Source of the DNA: Octadecabacter algicola | GTDB lineage: Bacteria; Pseudomonadota; Alphaproteobacteria; Rhodobacterales; Rhodobacteraceae | Length of the DNA stretch: 64,000 bases | Assembly: GCF_021532625.1 (NCBI RefSeq) | Contig: NZ_JAKGAR010000002.1 | Location: 372,001 to 436,000, forward strand | Direction: 5' to 3' | In this document: piece after piece, positions 25,305 through 54,909 of the stretch | Position numbering within the stretch: position 1 is the stretch's first letter | How the letters are laid out: each line of letters opens with the position of its first letter | Translations under genes and position numbers: made by a program | Notes under the pieces: generated by a model | The model's database searches: none | What the model was told of the DNA's origin: nothing | The model's input: the letters and a program-made list of their open reading frames with translations, nothing else

Positions 25305-26116
25305 CCACGACTTCGGATATCCCGCGCAGCGCGCGCGCCTTTCCGTCACTAGCTCGCTATCGCGGTGTGGTGAATGGGGCGTTTGGCATGGCATTGCTGA
25401 TCTTCCTGTGGTGGCTAGGGGGCCGCGCGGTTGCGGGCAATCCGAACATGTATGCGTTTTCCAGTTTCGCGCCGGGGCCCACCTTGACGCGACTTTGGAC
25501 GATGATCACCAGCGGTGAAATTTTCGAAATGGCAGGCCCGTCGCTCTACCGCGTCGGGTTGGGCATGGGAATTGCAGCGGTTGTCGGCGTGCCTATGGGC
25601 ATTCTGGTAGGGCGGGTGCAGCAGGTGCGCGAGATCACTAATATTCCGTTTCAATTTCTGCGGATGATTTCGCCTTTGTCTTGGATGCCCATTGCAGTGA
25701 TGGCCTTTGCCACATGGGACGCAGCAATCATTTTTTTGATCATGGTTGCGGCCATCTGGCCGATTTTGTTTGCGACTGCTGCTGGCGTGCGCCGCATTGA
25801 CCCCGCGTGGATCAAGGTGGCCCGAAATCTGGGCGCAAGCCGAACTCATATGCTGACCACCGTTATACTGCCCGCAGTGGCGACCGATATCCTGACCGGC
25901 ATACGTCTTGCACTTGGAGTCGCTTGGGTAGTGCTAGTGCCCGCAGAGTATCTTGGCGTCACATCGGGCCTTGGCTACGCCATCAACGATGCACGCGACA
26001 CTCTCGAATATGACCGCTTATCTGCCACCGTCGTGGTGATCGGCGTTATCGGCTTCGGCCTTGATACGCTTTGTCAAAAGGCAATCAGCCGTCTGAATTG
26101 GACCAAAACATCTTGA
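25301..26116 (+). CDS. ABC transporter permease, second NrtB/SsuC-like
   Basis: A 271-residue inner-membrane permease. The start is a GTG at 25301 overlapping the binding-protein stop (GTGA), giving MTTTSDIPRSARAF. About six transmembrane helices are visible. The EAA-type loop is IKVARNLGASRTHMLTTVILPAV and the conserved segment is ILTGIRLALGVAWVVLVPAEYLG. It completes the second importer (ATPase, binding protein, permease order, unlike the first importer's binding protein, permease, ATPase order). Confidence 0.88.
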   Translation: MTTTSDIPRSARAFPSLARYRGVVNGAFGMALLIFLWWLGGRAVAGNPNMYAFSSFAPGPTLTRLWTMITSGEIFEMAGPSLYRVGLGMGIAAVVGVPMGILVGRVQQVREITNIPFQFLRMISPLSWMPIAVMAFATWDAAIIFLIMVAAIWPILFATAAGVRRIDPAWIKVARNLGASRTHMLTTVILPAVATDILTGIRLALGVAWVVLVPAEYLGVTSGLGYAINDARDTLEYDRLSATVVVIGVIGFGLDTLCQKAISRLNWTKTS

Positions 26117-28685: not shown

Positions 28686-29274
28686 GATCATAGATTACTA
28701 TTTTGCACCAATGTCGGGTTATGCCTACCTCGGGCATGCTCGGCTCTTGGAGATTGCCGCAGGAGCTGGGGCGCTGGTTCGGTATCATCCGCTCAATATG
28801 CTCAAGGTTTTTGCCGCCGCCGGGTCATTTCCACCTGCGAAATACCCTCAGGTGCGCCAAACCCATCGAAAGGCAGATATGGCGCGTTGGGCCGAGGAGC
28901 TAGGAGTGCCAATCAATACCACGCCCGCTTTTTGGCCGGTCCCGATGGAGCTTGCTTGCTCGGTTATTGTGGCCGCAGGGGCCTTGGGAATTGATCAAGG
29001 TAAGGTGACAGGGGCCATTCTCTCGGCTGTTTGGGAAAAGGACCTTAACATCGCGTTAGAAAGCGATCTGCGCAAAGGTCTGATTGGGGTCGGGCTGGAT
29101 GCTGAAAGTGTTTTGGACAAATCGGAAACGCCCCAAATTAAAAATATAAGTCAAAAAGAAACCGAAGACGCCATCTCGTTAGGTATCTTCGGCTCCCCAA
29201 CTTATGTCGTCGACCAGAACTGGTTTTTCGGCCAAGACAGACTAGATTTTTTACATAGCGATCTCTCGAAATAG
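28672..29274 (+). CDS. DsbA-fold HCCA isomerase / kappa-GST-like protein
   Basis: A 200-residue thioredoxin-fold protein of the 2-hydroxychromene-2-carboxylate isomerase family. It has IIDYYFAPMSGYAYLGHARL with the glutathione-activating serine at the turn, HPLNMLKVFAAAG, RWAEELGVPIN, and the cis-Pro region GIFGSPTYVVDQNWFFGQDRLDFL. I chose the TTG at 28672, which has GAAGGA seven bases before it; an in-frame TTG at 28654 is the alternative. It overlaps the rhodanese by 14 bases, so it is the last coupled gene of the array. A glutathione-dependent isomerisation or conjugation is likely. The substrate is unknown. Confidence 0.82.
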   Translation: MPAPKIIDYYFAPMSGYAYLGHARLLEIAAGAGALVRYHPLNMLKVFAAAGSFPPAKYPQVRQTHRKADMARWAEELGVPINTTPAFWPVPMELACSVIVAAGALGIDQGKVTGAILSAVWEKDLNIALESDLRKGLIGVGLDAESVLDKSETPQIKNISQKETEDAISLGIFGSPTYVVDQNWFFGQDRLDFLHSDLSK

Positions 29275-37182: not shown

Positions 37183-38217
37183 TCATCGTGAGCCCTCATG
37201 TTTTGCGATCATGCGCAGCACTTCGAACATGAAGCCAATGGGACGACGTGGCGCGTCAGTTTGGTTGAAGGTTCCGATCAGGTAGATATCCGGTTCCGGC
37301 GCATAATAGGCAAAGGACCCGCTGGCACCGGAATGCCCGACCAGTTCGGGCGTTGCGCGAAACAAGGTCGTCCATAGCGGCAGCTTTATCCGCATCAAGC
37401 CGTAGCCATATTGCATAGGAAAAAAGAGCTTGTTCCACTGGCGCATTTGCGCGGCCGTCTGGGGCTGGAATAGCTGGTTTTGCATAAAGGCGCGCAAGAA
37501 GATCATCATCTCGTCCAAGGTTGAGATGATGCCACCATCTGGTCCCATGCTGGCCAGGATCCGCGGAATATTGAGCATCCTGTCTTCATGGTAGACGGGA
37601 AGGCCAACATCCGTGCCATCCAATACCCCGGTTTGCGTCAGCCCAAGCGGCGCGCAGATACGGGTCTTAAGCATCTCATCAAAGCTCTTGTCGGTCACGC
37701 GCTCGATCACCGCTCCCAGAAGCTGGAAATTCGTGTCGGAATAGTAGGATCGCCCGCTATCTGGCGCGGCTTGGGGCGGCAAGGCGCGCGTCATCTGTAG
37801 CACGTCCTTCAGCCCATAGCTGCGATCACGGCCCGCCTTCAAATCCGATGCCAAATCGCTTTCGTAATAGTCAGCCAGGCCCGAGGTTTGATGGAGGAGA
37901 TGTCGGATAGTTAAGCTTGCGCCATAGTCCATGTCCTTCACCACATGCAGACCAGAAAGGTCGACATCCGTCAGGATGTTCTGAACCATCTGATCCAGCT
38001 CGATTTGGCCCTCTTCGGCCAGTTGCATAATCAGCGTTGCGGTGAACATCTTGGCGATGCTCGCAATTGGAAAGCCTGTGTCGGGCATGGCATCACCGGC
38101 ACTGCCTTTGAAATCGACATGGCCATCGCCGGATTGAACGCGGAGGATTAGCGCATGAGTGTGGGCCTTGTTGCATTCCTTTTCGATCAAGGCTTGCAGG
38201 TCCTGGTCGAGGGTCAT
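37183..38217 (-). CDS. Serine hydrolase, class C beta-lactamase fold (first of two)
   Basis: A 344-residue protein with SIAK (Ser53, Lys56 in IASIAKMFTATL), YYSDTNFQLLG as the YxN-like motif with Asp in place of the usual residue order, and GHSGASG. No signal peptide. It is only distantly similar to the next gene, so the pair are paralogues of long standing or independent acquisitions. It follows the membrane protein gene by 30 bases. Substrate unknown. Confidence 0.83.
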   Translation of the reverse strand: MTLDQDLQALIEKECNKAHTHALILRVQSGDGHVDFKGSAGDAMPDTGFPIASIAKMFTATLIMQLAEEGQIELDQMVQNILTDVDLSGLHVVKDMDYGASLTIRHLLHQTSGLADYYESDLASDLKAGRDRSYGLKDVLQMTRALPPQAAPDSGRSYYSDTNFQLLGAVIERVTDKSFDEMLKTRICAPLGLTQTGVLDGTDVGLPVYHEDRMLNIPRILASMGPDGGIISTLDEMMIFLRAFMQNQLFQPQTAAQMRQWNKLFFPMQYGYGLMRIKLPLWTTLFRATPELVGHSGASGSFAYYAPEPDIYLIGTFNQTDAPRRPIGFMFEVLRMIAKHEGSR

Positions 38218-49644: not shown

Positions 49645-49852
49645 GCAAATAAGTGTTGACGGTACCGATCGCAGAATAGAAGCCGACGACAGCAGGCTCA
49701 TGGTCCATCGTAGCCATTCTAGGGGCGCGAAGGCGCCGCGAAAGTTGGAACAGTTCTTTCGCGTCCTGCATCAGTAGACTTCAGCACGATAAGCCAATGG
49801 TGCAAGGTTAAGTTGAAACCAAATCTTACCGAATTGATTTGTTCGAAATTTG

Positions 49853-50989
49853 ATGCCATCAATCAGGATGGAATTTTTAGACGTCCAACATAATACTGCG
49901 CTTGTCATTGCGTCGATTGTTGTTGCCCTTGTCGCTGGCTTCACGGGTTTGACCCTGTCCAAAGATCTTTCAACGAAAAGTGTGGCGCGTAGGAAAGTGT
50001 CGATCGCAATGTCAGCGATCGCATTAGGTGGCGGCATTTGGTCCATGCATTTCGTGGCAATGCTTGGTATTCAGATGCCGATCCTATTCTTTTATGATGC
50101 GGCGATCACGTTAGCGTCGGCTTTGCTGGCAATCCTGATCGTTGGCACCGCTTTGCTGTTGTTGCATTTTCGGGAACGAACGCCTTTTACTTTGTCTGCT
50201 GCGGGCGCGTTGGTTGGATGCGGCATACTGGCGATGCATTATGTCGGAATGGCGGGCCTTCAATTGTGCCGCGCAGTATATACACCACTTGGAATTCTAT
50301 TGGCTGTCGTTTCCGCTGTGGGCCTTTGCATTGCCGCGTTCTGGATTGCGTATGGCCGACGGACCAATCGCAACATCTTATTGGGAACGCTGTGCTTTGG
50401 GTCGGCCGTCAGTGCGGTACATTTTGCGGCTATGGCTGGCACCAATTTTGTCGCCCTCCCGACGTTACATGAATTTGGCCCAGTAATGAGCAATGAGACG
50501 CTTGCGATGGGGGTTATTCTTTCGAGCTTTGTAATCTTCGGGGCGTTTTTATGGATGGGCGTGACGTTCTTTGCACCAACTGCGGGTGAGGCGGCACAGC
50601 AACCTATTGCTGCACAGGACTCAAAGGCGAGCCCGCCTGTACCTGCTCCGACGTTAGCGACCGTACGCATCCCGTGCGAGCACAACGGCGTAACTAAATT
50701 AATAGATCCGGCACAGGTCGCCTTTGTTCAAGCCGAAGGGCATTACACCAACGTATTTACCAAAGACGCAAAGCACTTTTGTGGGTGGCCGATTACCGAG
50801 GCGATCACGCGGCTAGAGGCGTCGGGCCTCATCAGGACTCATCGTAGTTATTTGGTGAACCCTGCGCAGGTGAATGACTTTGAACGACTCAAAGATACGG
50901 GCGTTTGTCGCTTTGCTGCGCCGCATCTACCACCCGTCCCGGTAAGCCGCTCTCACCTTAAGGGTGTTCGAGACGTACTTGGCATCTAG
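49853..50989 (+). CDS. coxC: MHYT-LytTR regulator of the CO dehydrogenase operon (CoxC type)
   Basis: A 378-residue membrane-bound regulator. Seven transmembrane helices carry the three MHYT-type motifs MHFVAM, MHYVGM and VHFAAM, whose His/Met residues are proposed to bind copper or haem and sense gases. A linker (about residues 255-270) leads to a C-terminal LytTR DNA-binding domain (VRIPCEHNGVTKLIDPAQVAFVQAEGHYTNVFT; LIRTHRSYLVNPAQVNDFERL). MHYT-LytTR proteins CoxC and CoxH flank the cox genes of Oligotropha carboxidovorans. The start is uncertain: TTG 49850, ATG 49853 or ATG 49868, none with a good ribosome site. Three 21-bp-phased repeats follow directly. Confidence 0.87.
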   Translation: MPSIRMEFLDVQHNTALVIASIVVALVAGFTGLTLSKDLSTKSVARRKVSIAMSAIALGGGIWSMHFVAMLGIQMPILFFYDAAITLASALLAILIVGTALLLLHFRERTPFTLSAAGALVGCGILAMHYVGMAGLQLCRAVYTPLGILLAVVSAVGLCIAAFWIAYGRRTNRNILLGTLCFGSAVSAVHFAAMAGTNFVALPTLHEFGPVMSNETLAMGVILSSFVIFGAFLWMGVTFFAPTAGEAAQQPIAAQDSKASPPVPAPTLATVRIPCEHNGVTKLIDPAQVAFVQAEGHYTNVFTKDAKHFCGWPITEAITRLEASGLIRTHRSYLVNPAQVNDFERLKDTGVCRFAAPHLPPVPVSRSHLKGVRDVLGI

Positions 50990-50995
50990 CGTTTC

Positions 50996-51050
50996 GCAAT
51001 TCGTGCAGCCTCAGGCGCATTTCGTGAAAAAACCAGATCATTTCGTTGAT
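50996..51050. promoter_or_regulatory. Triple direct repeat, predicted LytTR operator of the cox operon
   Basis: TTCGT occurs at 51000, 51021 and 51042, each within a wider similar word (GCAATTCGTGCA, GCATTTCGTGAA, TCATTTCGTTGA). The period is exactly 21 bases, two DNA turns. LytTR domains bind imperfect ~9-bp direct repeats at about this phasing. The repeats begin seven bases after the coxC stop and end 75 bases before coxM, the place expected of an activator site for the cox promoter. Binding is inferred. Confidence 0.65.
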
Positions 51051-51124
51051 TAACCCAAGCGCCTGCATACCGCTGCGTACAGTCTGTCGTCCTGAACTAA
51101 ATTGCGGAAACGGGAGGCGAAGCA

Positions 51125-51979
51125 ATGATACCAGCGGCGTTCGAGTACTACAGGCCGACAGACATGGCAGGCGTAATCGCCCTGCTTCAAGAACATGGAG
51201 ATGATGCGCGGGTGATCGCGGGTGGGCACAGCCTTATCCCGATGATGAAGCTGCGGATGGCCGAGGTGCCGCATCTTATCGATTTGCAAGCAATTGACGG
51301 CCTGAACGGGATCGCCATTTCGGACGGTACCATCACCATCGGTGCGATGGTTACACAGCACGAGATTATTAATTCCGCCGAGATGGAAGCAACCGCGCCC
51401 ATCATGAAAGAGGCTGCGCTGCAAATTGCTGATCCGCAGGTCCGCTATATGGGCACAGTTGGTGGCAATGTCGCAAACGGGGATCCTGGCAACGACATGC
51501 CCGGCTTGATGCAATGTCTGAACGCACAGTTTCACCTTGTTGGCCCTGACGGGGATCGCGTTGTTGATGCGCGCGATTTCTACGAGGCAGCCTATATGAC
51601 CGACCGCGAAGACGAAGAGGTTCTGACCGCTGTGAGCTTTACAGCCCCCGCCGGTGGCTTCGCTTATGAAAAGCAAAAGCGTAAGATTGGCGATTATGCG
51701 ACGGCTGCGGCCGCCGTACAAATCTCCAAAGAGGGTGGCAAAGTTTCTGCCGCCTCAATCGCGATGACCAACCTTAGCGATACACCGGTCTGGTCCGAAG
51801 ACGCGGGCGCGGCTCTTGTCGGTACGGCCTGTGATGAAGCTGCCGTGAAAGCTGCTGTCACCGCCATGCTGGACGACATCGATCCAACAGAAGACAACCG
51901 CGGCCCCGTCGCATTCAAACGCCACGCTGCCAGCATCGTCCTAGGCCGCGCCATCGCGCGCGCTTGGTCACGGGCGTAA
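51125..51979 (+). CDS. coxM: Aerobic CO dehydrogenase medium subunit (FAD)
   Basis: The 284-residue FAD subunit of the Mo-Cu CO dehydrogenase, passing electrons from the iron-sulfur subunit to quinone. FAD-pyrophosphate motifs are AGGHSLIPMMKLRMA (residues 36-50) and TVGGNVANGDPGNDMP (about 117-132). It starts with IPAAFEYYRPT, typical of CoxM. GGGAGG precedes the ATG. It is the first structural gene after the predicted operator, and coxS follows after 12 bases. Confidence 0.95.
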   Translation: MIPAAFEYYRPTDMAGVIALLQEHGDDARVIAGGHSLIPMMKLRMAEVPHLIDLQAIDGLNGIAISDGTITIGAMVTQHEIINSAEMEATAPIMKEAALQIADPQVRYMGTVGGNVANGDPGNDMPGLMQCLNAQFHLVGPDGDRVVDARDFYEAAYMTDREDEEVLTAVSFTAPAGGFAYEKQKRKIGDYATAAAAVQISKEGGKVSAASIAMTNLSDTPVWSEDAGAALVGTACDEAAVKAAVTAMLDDIDPTEDNRGPVAFKRHAASIVLGRAIARAWSRA

Positions 51980-51991
51980 GGGAGAAAAACT

Positions 51992-52486
51992 ATGTCAAAC
52001 AAGATGCACGTCAAACTTAACGTCAACGGTGAGGACCACGAATTCCTTGCTGAACCACGCGAGCTGCTGATCTATGCACTGCGTGAAAAGCTCAACATCA
52101 CGGGTCCGCACGTGGGCTGTGAAACATCCCATTGTGGGGCCTGCACGGTTACGATGAACGGTAAGTCCGTTAAATCCTGCACCGTCTTTGTGGCGCAAGC
52201 TAATGGCGCTGAGGTCACCACAATCGAAGGTCTCGGCACGCCGGATGCGCTGCACGTTTTGCAAGAGAACTTCAAAGAGCATCACGGCCTTCAGTGCGGT
52301 TTCTGCACACCGGGCATGATCACGCGCGCCGCCAAGTTGCTGGAAGAGAACCCCAACCCAACCGAGGAAGACGTCCGCTTTGGCATCGCCGGCAACATCT
52401 GTCGCTGCACGGGCTACCAGAACATCGTGAAATCAATTCTCTCAGCGGCGTCTGAGCTAAACGCATCCAAGGAGGCGGCCCAATGA
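51992..52486 (+). CDS. coxS: Aerobic CO dehydrogenase small subunit (two 2Fe-2S clusters)
   Basis: A 164-residue subunit with both clusters complete: Cys43, Cys48, Cys51 and Cys63 form the plant-ferredoxin-type cluster ([11 protein letters not shown]). Cys102, Cys105, Cys137 and Cys139 form the second ([15 protein letters not shown]). It relays electrons from the Mo-Cu site to FAD. GGGAG precedes the ATG. The stop overlaps the coxL ATG by four bases. Confidence 0.96.
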
Positions 52487-54909
52487 AGGACGAAATTACA
52501 CGCGACGAACGGGTCGCAAACCTTAAGGGCATGGGGTGTTCACGCAAACGGGTCGAAGATTCCCGCTTTACCCAAGGCAAAGGCAACTACGTTGACGACA
52601 TCAAACTACCCGGCATGCTGCACGGCGATTTCGTACGCTCACCCTATGCGCACGCTCGGGTGAAATCGATCAACATTGACGCGGCGATGGCGTTGCCCGG
52701 TGTTGTTGCCGTGCTGACAGCCAAGGATCTAGAACCACTTAACCTGCATTGGATGCCGACGCTGGCGGGCGACAAACAGATGGTGCTCGCCGACGGAAAG
52801 GTGCTGTTCCAAGGGCAGGAAGTAGCGTTCGTTGTGGCCAATGACCGCTATATTGCAGCTGACGCGGTTGAGCTGGTCGAAGTGGACTACGAAGAACTTG
52901 AGGTGATCGTCGATCCATTCAAGTCGTTGCAATCAGATGTGGTACTGCGTGAGGACATGGTGGCCGAAGACGGTTCGGTTCCGAACGGTGCCCATGGCCC
53001 TCGTAAGCATCCCAATCATATATTTACTTGGGAAGCGGGCGAAGAAGAAGCCACCAATCAAGTGATCGACAATGCCGAAGTCGTCGCCACCGAAGAGATG
53101 TATTACCACCGCACCCATCCATGCCCATTAGAAACCTGTGGATCTGTCGCGTCGATGGACAAGGTGAATGGCAAGCTGACCCTTTGGGGGACCTTCCAAG
53201 CGCCGCACGTCGTGCGAACGGTTGCGTCACTGCTGTCAGGTATTGAGGAGCACAACATCCGTGTTGTTTCCCCTGATATTGGCGGTGGGTTCGGCAACAA
53301 GGTGGGCGTCTATCCTGGCTATGTCTGTTCCATCGTTGCATCGATTGTGACAGGCGTTCCTGTGAAATGGGTTGAGGACCGGATGGAAAATCTGATGTCC
53401 ACAGCCTTTGCGCGGGACTACTGGATGAAGGGTAAGATCAGCGCCACAAAAGATGGCAAAATCACGGGCCTGCATTGCCACGTGACGGCTGATCACGGCG
53501 CGTTTGATGCTTGTGCCGATCCGACCAAATTCCCGGCGGGCTTTATGAACATCTGTACGGGGTCTTATGACATCCCGGTCGCCTATCTAGGCGTTGATGG
53601 TGTTTATACCAACAAGGCCCCCGGCGGCGTGTCGTACCGCTGTTCGTTCCGCGTCACTGAGGCTGTGTACTTTATTGAACGCATGATCGAAGTTCTTGCG
53701 ATCGAACTGAACATGGACCCAGCAGAACTGCGTTCGATCAATTTCATCAAGAAGGAACAGTTCCCTTATACGGCAGCACTTGGCTGGGAATACGACTCCG
53801 GCGATTACCAAACCGCTTGGGACAAGGCGCTTGTGGCCGTGGACTACAAAGGTCTTCGCGAAGAACAGGCCCAACGGGTCGAAGACTTCAAGGCCGGTAA
53901 GACCCGCAAAGTTATGGGCATCGGTTTGTCGTTCTTTACGGAAATCGTTGGTGCGGGACCGGTCAAGAACTGCGACATCCTTGGGATGGGTATGTTTGAT
54001 AGCTGTGAAATCCGCATTCACCCGACAGGGTCGGCTGTGGCGCGGCTCGGGACGATTAGCCAAGGTCAAGGTCACGCCACGACTTTTGCGCAAATCCTTG
54101 CAACCGAGATTGGCCTGTCTGCTGAAAGCATTACAATCGAGGAAGGCGACACCGATACCGCGCCTTATGGTCTGGGGACGTATGGCTCGCGTTCCACGCC
54201 AGTTGCGGGTGCAGCAGCGGCAATGGCGGGGCGTAAGATCCGTGCCAAGGCTCAGATGATCGCGGCGTATTTGCTTGAAGTACACGACAACGATGTGGAA
54301 TTCGACGTGGATCGCTTTGTTGTCAAAGGATCGCCTGAGCAGTTTAAGACGATGAAGGAAGTCGCCTACGCTGCATACAATCAGGCCATTCCTGGGCTTG
54401 AACCTGGGCTTGAGGCGGTCAGCTACTATGATCCACCTAACATGACCTATCCCTTTGGCGCATATGTCTGCGTCATGGACATCGACGTCGATACCGGCGT
54501 GCCTGAAATCCGCCGCTTCTATGCGCTGGATGACTGCGGTACGCGGATCAACCCGATGGTCATTGATGGGCAAATCCACGGTGGTTTGACCGAAGCTCTT
54601 GCCGTCGCTTTGGGTCAAGAGATTGCCTATGACGACATGGGCAACGTCAAGACAGGTACGTTGATGGACTTTTTCCTGCCAACGGCTTGGGAAGTGCCAA
54701 ATTACGAGACTGACTTCACCGTCACGCCGAGCCCGCACCACCCAATTGGGGCCAAAGGTGTCGGCGAAAGCCCGCATGTCGGCGGTGTTCCGTGCTTCTC
54801 GAATGCAGTGCAGGATGCGTTCCGTCCGTTTGGCAACCGTCACACCAATATGCCGCATGATCACTGGCGTATTTGGCAGACAGCCAACGATCTGGGCATG
54901 CACGACTAA
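52483..54909 (+). CDS. coxL: Aerobic CO dehydrogenase large subunit, form I (Mo-Cu)
   Basis: The 808-residue catalytic subunit (809 in Oligotropha) that oxidises CO to CO2 at a Mo-S-Cu site with molybdopterin cytosine dinucleotide. The copper-binding Cys is Cys387 in [11 protein letters not shown]. This is the form I signature AYXCSFR with the first Ala replaced by Ser, and it is clearly unlike the form II AYRGAGR. Other motifs are [15 protein letters not shown] (residues 267-281), [11 protein letters not shown], and the catalytic Glu762 in [11 protein letters not shown]. The start overlaps coxS. A 9-bp hairpin follows the stop, before coxD. Confidence 0.96.

Follow-up and report, generated by a model that had tools for sequence, protein, structure and literature searches.

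Three direct repeats with a period of 21 bp lie between coxC, the gene of a membrane regulator, and coxM, the first gene of a CO dehydrogenase cluster, and the question raised by this locus is whether they serve as an operator and, if so, for which protein and with what effect. We consider it highly probable that CoxC, encoded next to them, uses these repeats as its operator at the head of coxMSL; binding of the repeats by CoxC at this locus is predicted from sequence comparison. The features concerned, within the window (the whole 64-kb stretch of DNA that was analysed), are as follows.

49868..50989, + strand: coxC, membrane regulator with an MHYT sensor and a C-terminal LytTR domain (Pfam, alignment of relatives)
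50996..51007, + strand: candidate operator site 1, GCAATTCGTGCA (repeat seen in the sequence, conserved in relatives)
51017..51028, + strand: candidate operator site 2, GCATTTCGTGAA, 21 bp past site 1 (conserved in relatives)
51038..51049, + strand: candidate operator site 3, TCATTTCGTTGA, weaker, 21 bp past site 2 (register kept, sequence less so)
51112..51117, + strand: GGGAGG, probable coxM ribosome-binding site (GGGAGGA conserved in the alignment)
51125..51979, + strand: coxM, CO dehydrogenase flavoprotein subunit, first gene past the candidate operator (Pfam FAD_binding_5 and CO_deh_flav_C)
51992..52486, + strand: coxS, iron-sulphur subunit (Pfam Fer2_2 and Fer2)
52483..54909, + strand: coxL, large subunit, presumed member of the controlled operon (open reading frame, identity to relatives)

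The repeats and their flanking genes

The start of coxC was set at the ATG aligned with relatives, while the open reading frame could open at the TTG at 49850. Pfam matched MHYT in two stretches of the N-terminal part (E 1.3e-31) and LytTR in the C-terminal part (E 1.3e-14), and the MHYT-motif residues M60, H61, M123, H124, and H185 were invariant in an alignment of 13 CoxC sequences. A Pfam match to PAS was not found in CoxC, where MHYT stands in its place, so the combination of PAS-haem and LytTR that marks RcoM is absent. A search for PDB relatives of the C-terminal part gave none at an E value of 0.01 or better. As is typical of CoxC-type regulators, the gene sits beside cox genes, with coxMSL directly downstream; in most family matches, coxL shared 81 to 97% identity with the coxL of the relative, either annotated as such or co-located.

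The original prediction had noticed the word TTCGT at 51000, 51021, and 51042 and placed it between the MHYT-LytTR reading frame (end at 50989) and coxM (start at 51125); both the starts and the location were verified. TTCGT occurs 65 times on the + strand of the window, with a single triplet at p, p+21, and p+42, and no other 5-mer in the 64 kb forms a threefold repeat with a period of exactly 21 bp. For spacings of 19, 20, or 22 bp, the window contained no 5-mer triplet. Shuffling of the 135-bp coxC-coxM gap never produced a 5-mer triplet at 21 bp (0 of 20,000 shuffles), and 16 of the 20,000 had one at some equal spacing between 15 and 30 bp. Two details of the prediction had to be corrected, since the units are longer than TTCGT, being 12-mers that start at 50996, 51017, and 51038, and repeats 1 and 2 are clearly stronger than repeat 3.

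Compared with the unit GCANTTCGTGCA, sites 1 and 2 of the window together agreed at 21 of 22 scored bases and sites 2 and 3 at 18 of 22. The exact pattern TTCGTG-N14/15-TTCGTG had a single match in the 3.45-Mb genome, at the coxC-coxM gap, and the reversed pattern, used as a control, matched twice, elsewhere. Three direct repeats about two helical turns apart, the arrangement published for CoxC operators, are thus found at 50996, 51017, and 51038. Past site 3, at 51064-51085, the window also carries an inverted GCATAC...GTATGC-like stretch that is partly conserved among close relatives.

Conservation of the repeats and their association with coxM

We sampled the CoxC loci of the genus and family plus at least 80 named loci of public genomes, examined the region ahead of coxM, and scored the pair against GCANTTCGTGCA with a cut of 17/22 and a spacing of 20 or 21 bp. 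Loci L009 to L013 were excluded as non-orthologues of CoxC, and L089 and L102 for an absent C-terminal CoxC match; L089, outside the counts, has a pair at 19/22. Three loci with coxM outside the first stretch (L019, L081, and L096) were examined instead as L216, L217, and L230, and the named loci L133 (on a contig shared with L019), L149, L190, and L206 were omitted, the coxM or CoxC part lying outside the stretch. Removal of 10 duplicates from 172 rows left 162 distinct coxC/coxM loci.

A tandem GCANTTCGTGCA pair was present upstream of coxM in 156 of the 162, the spacing over all 162 being 20 bp in 86 and 21 bp in 76; since the sample includes many close relatives, the independent cases are fewer. 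The CoxC proteins of these 156 loci are 29 to 100% identical to CoxC here, with 10 of them below 40%. Loss of the phasing in relatives had been named as an outcome that would speak against the prediction, and the phasing was kept in 90 of the 92 genus and family loci having both coxC and coxM (at least 17/22, 20 or 21 bp). By a looser test, the two best matches lay 20 or 21 bp apart in 89 of 95 real regions, and a comparable pair at 20 to 22 bp occurred in 23 of 4,750 shuffled ones. One base reached at least 78% in 10 of the 12 columns of site 1 and in 11 of the 12 of site 2.

The six loci under the cut were L040, L062, and the Granulosicoccus-type loci L179, L182, L185, and L201, although L185 has three cores, TTCGTG or TTGGTG, with a spacing of exactly 20 bp. 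The coxC-coxM layout itself occurs beyond Alphaproteobacteria, in Granulosicoccus-type Gammaproteobacteria (L179, L182, L184, L185, and L201), with diverged repeats. Among the CoxC loci L224 to L229, which are outside the 162, five of six had a pair at 17/22 or better, the one without it being L225; together with L231, it represents the most divergent CoxC loci, neither of which has a pair at 17/22.

Site 3 was weaker in sequence across the loci, and its register tended to hold. When offsets from +14 to +39 past site 2 were scanned, its best match was at +20 or +21 for 44 of the 81 loci in the 20-bp class and for 51 of the 75 in the 21-bp class. The commonest combinations of spacings were 20 then 21 bp (36 loci) and 21 then 20 bp (31 loci), both adding up to 41 bp; in the window, both spacings are 21 bp. 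Many roseobacters have TTTCATTGA as the sequence of site 3.

The pair belongs to coxM and not to the 3' end of coxC. In all four loci studied with a displaced coxC (3.8 kb away in L079, about 14 kb in G345, about 31 kb in G296, and on another contig in G313), the pair was upstream of coxM, and none was found after the displaced coxC, where the best score in the four loci was 12 or 13/22 (with 152 bases readable in G313). In 13 adjacent loci with a gap above 180 bp, site 2 lay 100 to 145 bp before coxM and its distance from coxC varied between 30 and 232 bp. In L149 (Roseovarius mucosus), not counted among the four displaced cases, CoxC is present and the 9 kb examined contain neither coxM nor a pair downstream of coxC.

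Form I coxL was found in 103 of 394 family genomes and CoxC in 97 of these 103; conversely, all 97 family genomes with CoxC had form I coxL. Upstream of coxM, only two of the six coxL genomes without CoxC were readable, too few for a conclusion: G101 had no pair, and G127 (L220), in which no CoxC was found, had an apparent decayed pair by eye, GCGTTTCGTGCT and GCATTTGCCGAA, 20 bp apart, such as might be left after loss of the regulator. The strict pattern TTCGTG-N10/11-GCANTTCGTG gave 54 matches in 53 of the 394 genomes, 39 of them within 3 kb of the coxL start, and its reversed control gave 8 (hand count). We took the 15 matches distant from coxL as background; the stretches examined around the best-looking of them (G111, G409, and G399) contained no match to CoxC or CoxM.

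On pSMR1-4 of Pseudosulfitobacter pseudonitzschiae (L204), typed as a conjugative plasmid, coxC, a 22/22 operator pair, and coxMSL adjoin a relaxase gene and a conjugative transfer gene. In Sinorhizobium meliloti pSymA (L206:7191) and in L243, a good operator pair comes after a CoxC-like MHYT-LytTR gene of about 31% identity; the stretch contains no CoxM match, and the annotated AK83 record shows an EAL-domain gene as the next one.

Comparison with the CoxC operator of Afipia carboxidovorans

At PcoxB of Afipia (Oligotropha) carboxidovorans OM5, the LytTR domain of CoxC binds an operator of three direct repeats, the apparent KD being about 25 nM; all three repeats were reported to be necessary, and PcoxB is repressed by CoxC in E. 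coli, CO relieving the repression with a need for copper (Durante-Rodriguez et al. 2024, PMC11347149). The earlier remark that targets of CoxC-type regulators are poorly known is therefore outdated. The Afipia system and the window share the MHYT-LytTR domain order, the adjacency of cox genes, and three direct repeats about two turns apart, and they differ in that the window operator stands before coxM rather than coxB, its motif (GCANTTCGTGCA) is sharper, and the two CoxC proteins are 30% identical.

We scanned the 133-kb Afipia plasmid pHCG3 with a matrix from the coxM-upstream loci. Matrix 1 took in the coxM regions of Afipia and Bradyrhizobium betae, while matrix 2 was built only from the 146 loci whose CoxC shares 40% or more identity with CoxC here, without Afipia and other distant members; the ranking of pHCG3 sites was the same with both. 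The highest triplet, GCAGTTCATGCG/GCCGTTGGTGGA/GTCGTTTGGGCA (21 and 20 bp, position 25688, score 20.6), is at the start of the published PcoxB fragment, as identified by the forward primer (PMC11347149). The second, GTATTTCGTGCA/GCTTTTGGTGAC/ATGTCTGGTGCG (20 and 20 bp, position 28728, score 18.7), falls in the gap separating coxC from coxM, and the third (score 14.6) is inside a hydrogenase gene. Over 20 shuffles of pHCG3, the best triplet averaged 5.3, with one at 20.2, as high as the real ones, and the maximum in another set of 20 shuffles was 10.8. The best pairs were at 28728 (21.7), 25688 (21.1), 66367 in the hydrogenase gene (20.0), and 37940 just past coxH (19.7); all four exceeded the best of 20 shuffles (16.4), and three of the four are situated between cox-cluster genes.

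Since the tested PcoxB operator and the coxC-coxM site come out on top in pHCG3, the window repeats are likely to be a CoxC operator of the published kind. The original reading of them as a putative LytTR operator for CO dehydrogenase thus draws support from the conservation of the pair, from its following coxM, and from the recovery of PcoxB by the matrix. The pair at 37940 (L240:37940-37971), GCAGTTCATGCG/GTAGTTCGTGTT at 20 bp, stands directly past coxH, before the annotated coxI, and is followed, by eye, by a short coxM-like start with GGGAGG, as if the coxC-operator-coxM junction had been duplicated.

The register found here also bears on the published repeats. According to the methods of PMC11347149, the primer PcoxB1 turns TTACCG, named repeat 1, into GGACCC, and binding to the PcoxB1 mutant was weak. 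In our register, TTACCG corresponds to the spacer plus the first G of site 2, a base that is G at 98% in the site 2 profile, and its alteration could account for the weak binding. Judged by repeat 1, the published PcoxB repeats are probably out of register, with the real ones a few bases away. The published form TTNNNGCN is not found in every window repeat: site 1 fits it and sites 2 (TTCGTGAA) and 3 (TTCGTTGA) do not; among the 156 loci, it fits 104 first sites and 89 second sites.

The coxM-proximal triplet is present in A. carboxidovorans and, in the passages of PMC11347149 consulted, unreported: PcoxM does not occur in the main text, and those passages name PcoxB as the sole target. With some reserve, we favour a joint reading in which this triplet is the ancestral, main CoxC operator, from roseobacters to Hyphomicrobiales plus some Granulosicoccus-type Gammaproteobacteria, the true unit is GCANTTCGTGCA at 20 to 21 bp, the PcoxB repeats were published in the wrong register, and two operators at least, probably three, exist in Afipia (before coxB, before coxM, and after coxH).

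CoxC operators as such are already published (PMC11347149); new here are the wide conservation, the sharper motif, and the placement at coxM, as well as the probable re-reading of the published repeats and the predicted extra operators in Afipia. Within the titles and abstract openings of the open-licence literature searched, no operator before coxM was reported, and a description of the transcriptional control of form I CO dehydrogenase in roseobacters was not found in that literature. Form I CO dehydrogenase is common in marine bacteria, and a conserved operator would allow control in the whole group to be tested at a single point and would define more sharply the motif that membrane-bound LytTR sensors recognise. 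It would also be a concrete reason to return to the repeats published for Afipia and to test a second operator immediately ahead of the enzyme genes.

Proposed mode of control and alternative readings

In the mechanism we propose, the LytTR domains of CoxC would bind the repeats on one face of the DNA, two helical turns (20 to 21 bp) apart, with a distance of 41 to 42 bp between sites 1 and 3; the first two sites would be strong anchors and the third a weak one on the promoter side. By analogy with Afipia CoxC, the protein would sit on the operator and block coxMSL when CO is absent, and CO bound via copper at the MHYT sensor would release it. We lean towards such CO-relieved repression at coxM, carried over by homology. 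A CoxC operator would be expected to overlap the -35 box of its promoter; a sigma-70-like promoter was not found beside the operator in the window, and the best promoter match in 153 loci averaged 6.76 of 12 against 7.00 in shuffles, with none above chance. Simple blocking of a strong promoter is for this reason not favoured, and, as the geometry would also suit an RcoM-like activator, repression at coxM becomes less certain.

RcoM of Paraburkholderia xenovorans is a PAS-haem LytTR activator of cox genes whose sites are 21 bp apart, the third lying at the -35 element. Its operator is given as a triplet of direct repeats TTCNNGCA with 12- to 13-bp gaps (PMC11347149), that is, about 20 to 21 bp from start to start, like the window repeats. 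Window site 1, TTCGTGCA, fits TTCNNGCA exactly, whereas sites 2 and 3 fit it incompletely, and the window regulator has an MHYT sensor and no PAS match. The parallel with RcoM drawn in the original prediction calls for a correction, the published CoxC being a repressor relieved by CO and not an RcoM-like activator. Canonical LytTR operators (of AgrA-type regulators), pairs of 9-bp direct repeats 10 to 13 bp apart (PMC11347149), share direct repeats about two turns apart with the window, which has three sites and another core sequence.

It is possible, though we hold it to be unlikely, that CoxC uses these repeats as an RcoM-like activator, with site 3 abutting or overlapping a weak -35 element and CoxC aiding the binding of RNA polymerase. 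A site 3 that is less motif-like yet in register would suit such a role, as would the lack of a consensus promoter noted above, but the latter says little, because weak promoters are common in the group to which the host belongs. The three TTCNNGCA-type repeats of RcoM and the fact that the majority of LytTR regulators activate point the same way, while the sole characterised CoxC is a repressor relieved by CO (PMC11347149). Several findings count against the operator reading as such: the weak site 3 of the window set against the need for all three repeats at PcoxB, the identity of only 30% between CoxC here and Afipia CoxC, the pHCG3 hydrogenase-gene pair (66367) above all shuffles along with the one shuffle triplet at 20.2, the two other LytTR genes in the genome, and the absence of a pair in L225 and L231.

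A chance feature, or a by-product of coding or RNA structure where coxC ends, might be suspected from the 24 of 91 adjacent loci in which site 1 starts ahead of the end of the coxC stop codon. This origin is refuted, its probability being negligible, by the gap shuffles, by the conservation of the pair in 156 of 162 loci, and by the loci with coxC elsewhere, in which the pair stays at coxM and is absent after coxC. That one of the two further LytTR proteins, rather than CoxC, binds the repeats is very improbable: their genes lie elsewhere (C8:839325 and C10:67589) and differ in their N-terminal parts, the exact TTCGTG pair is unique in the genome, and the pair co-occurs with CoxC and coxL across the family. 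The N-terminal parts encoded by these two genes (L238 and L239, respectively) are short and probably membrane bound.
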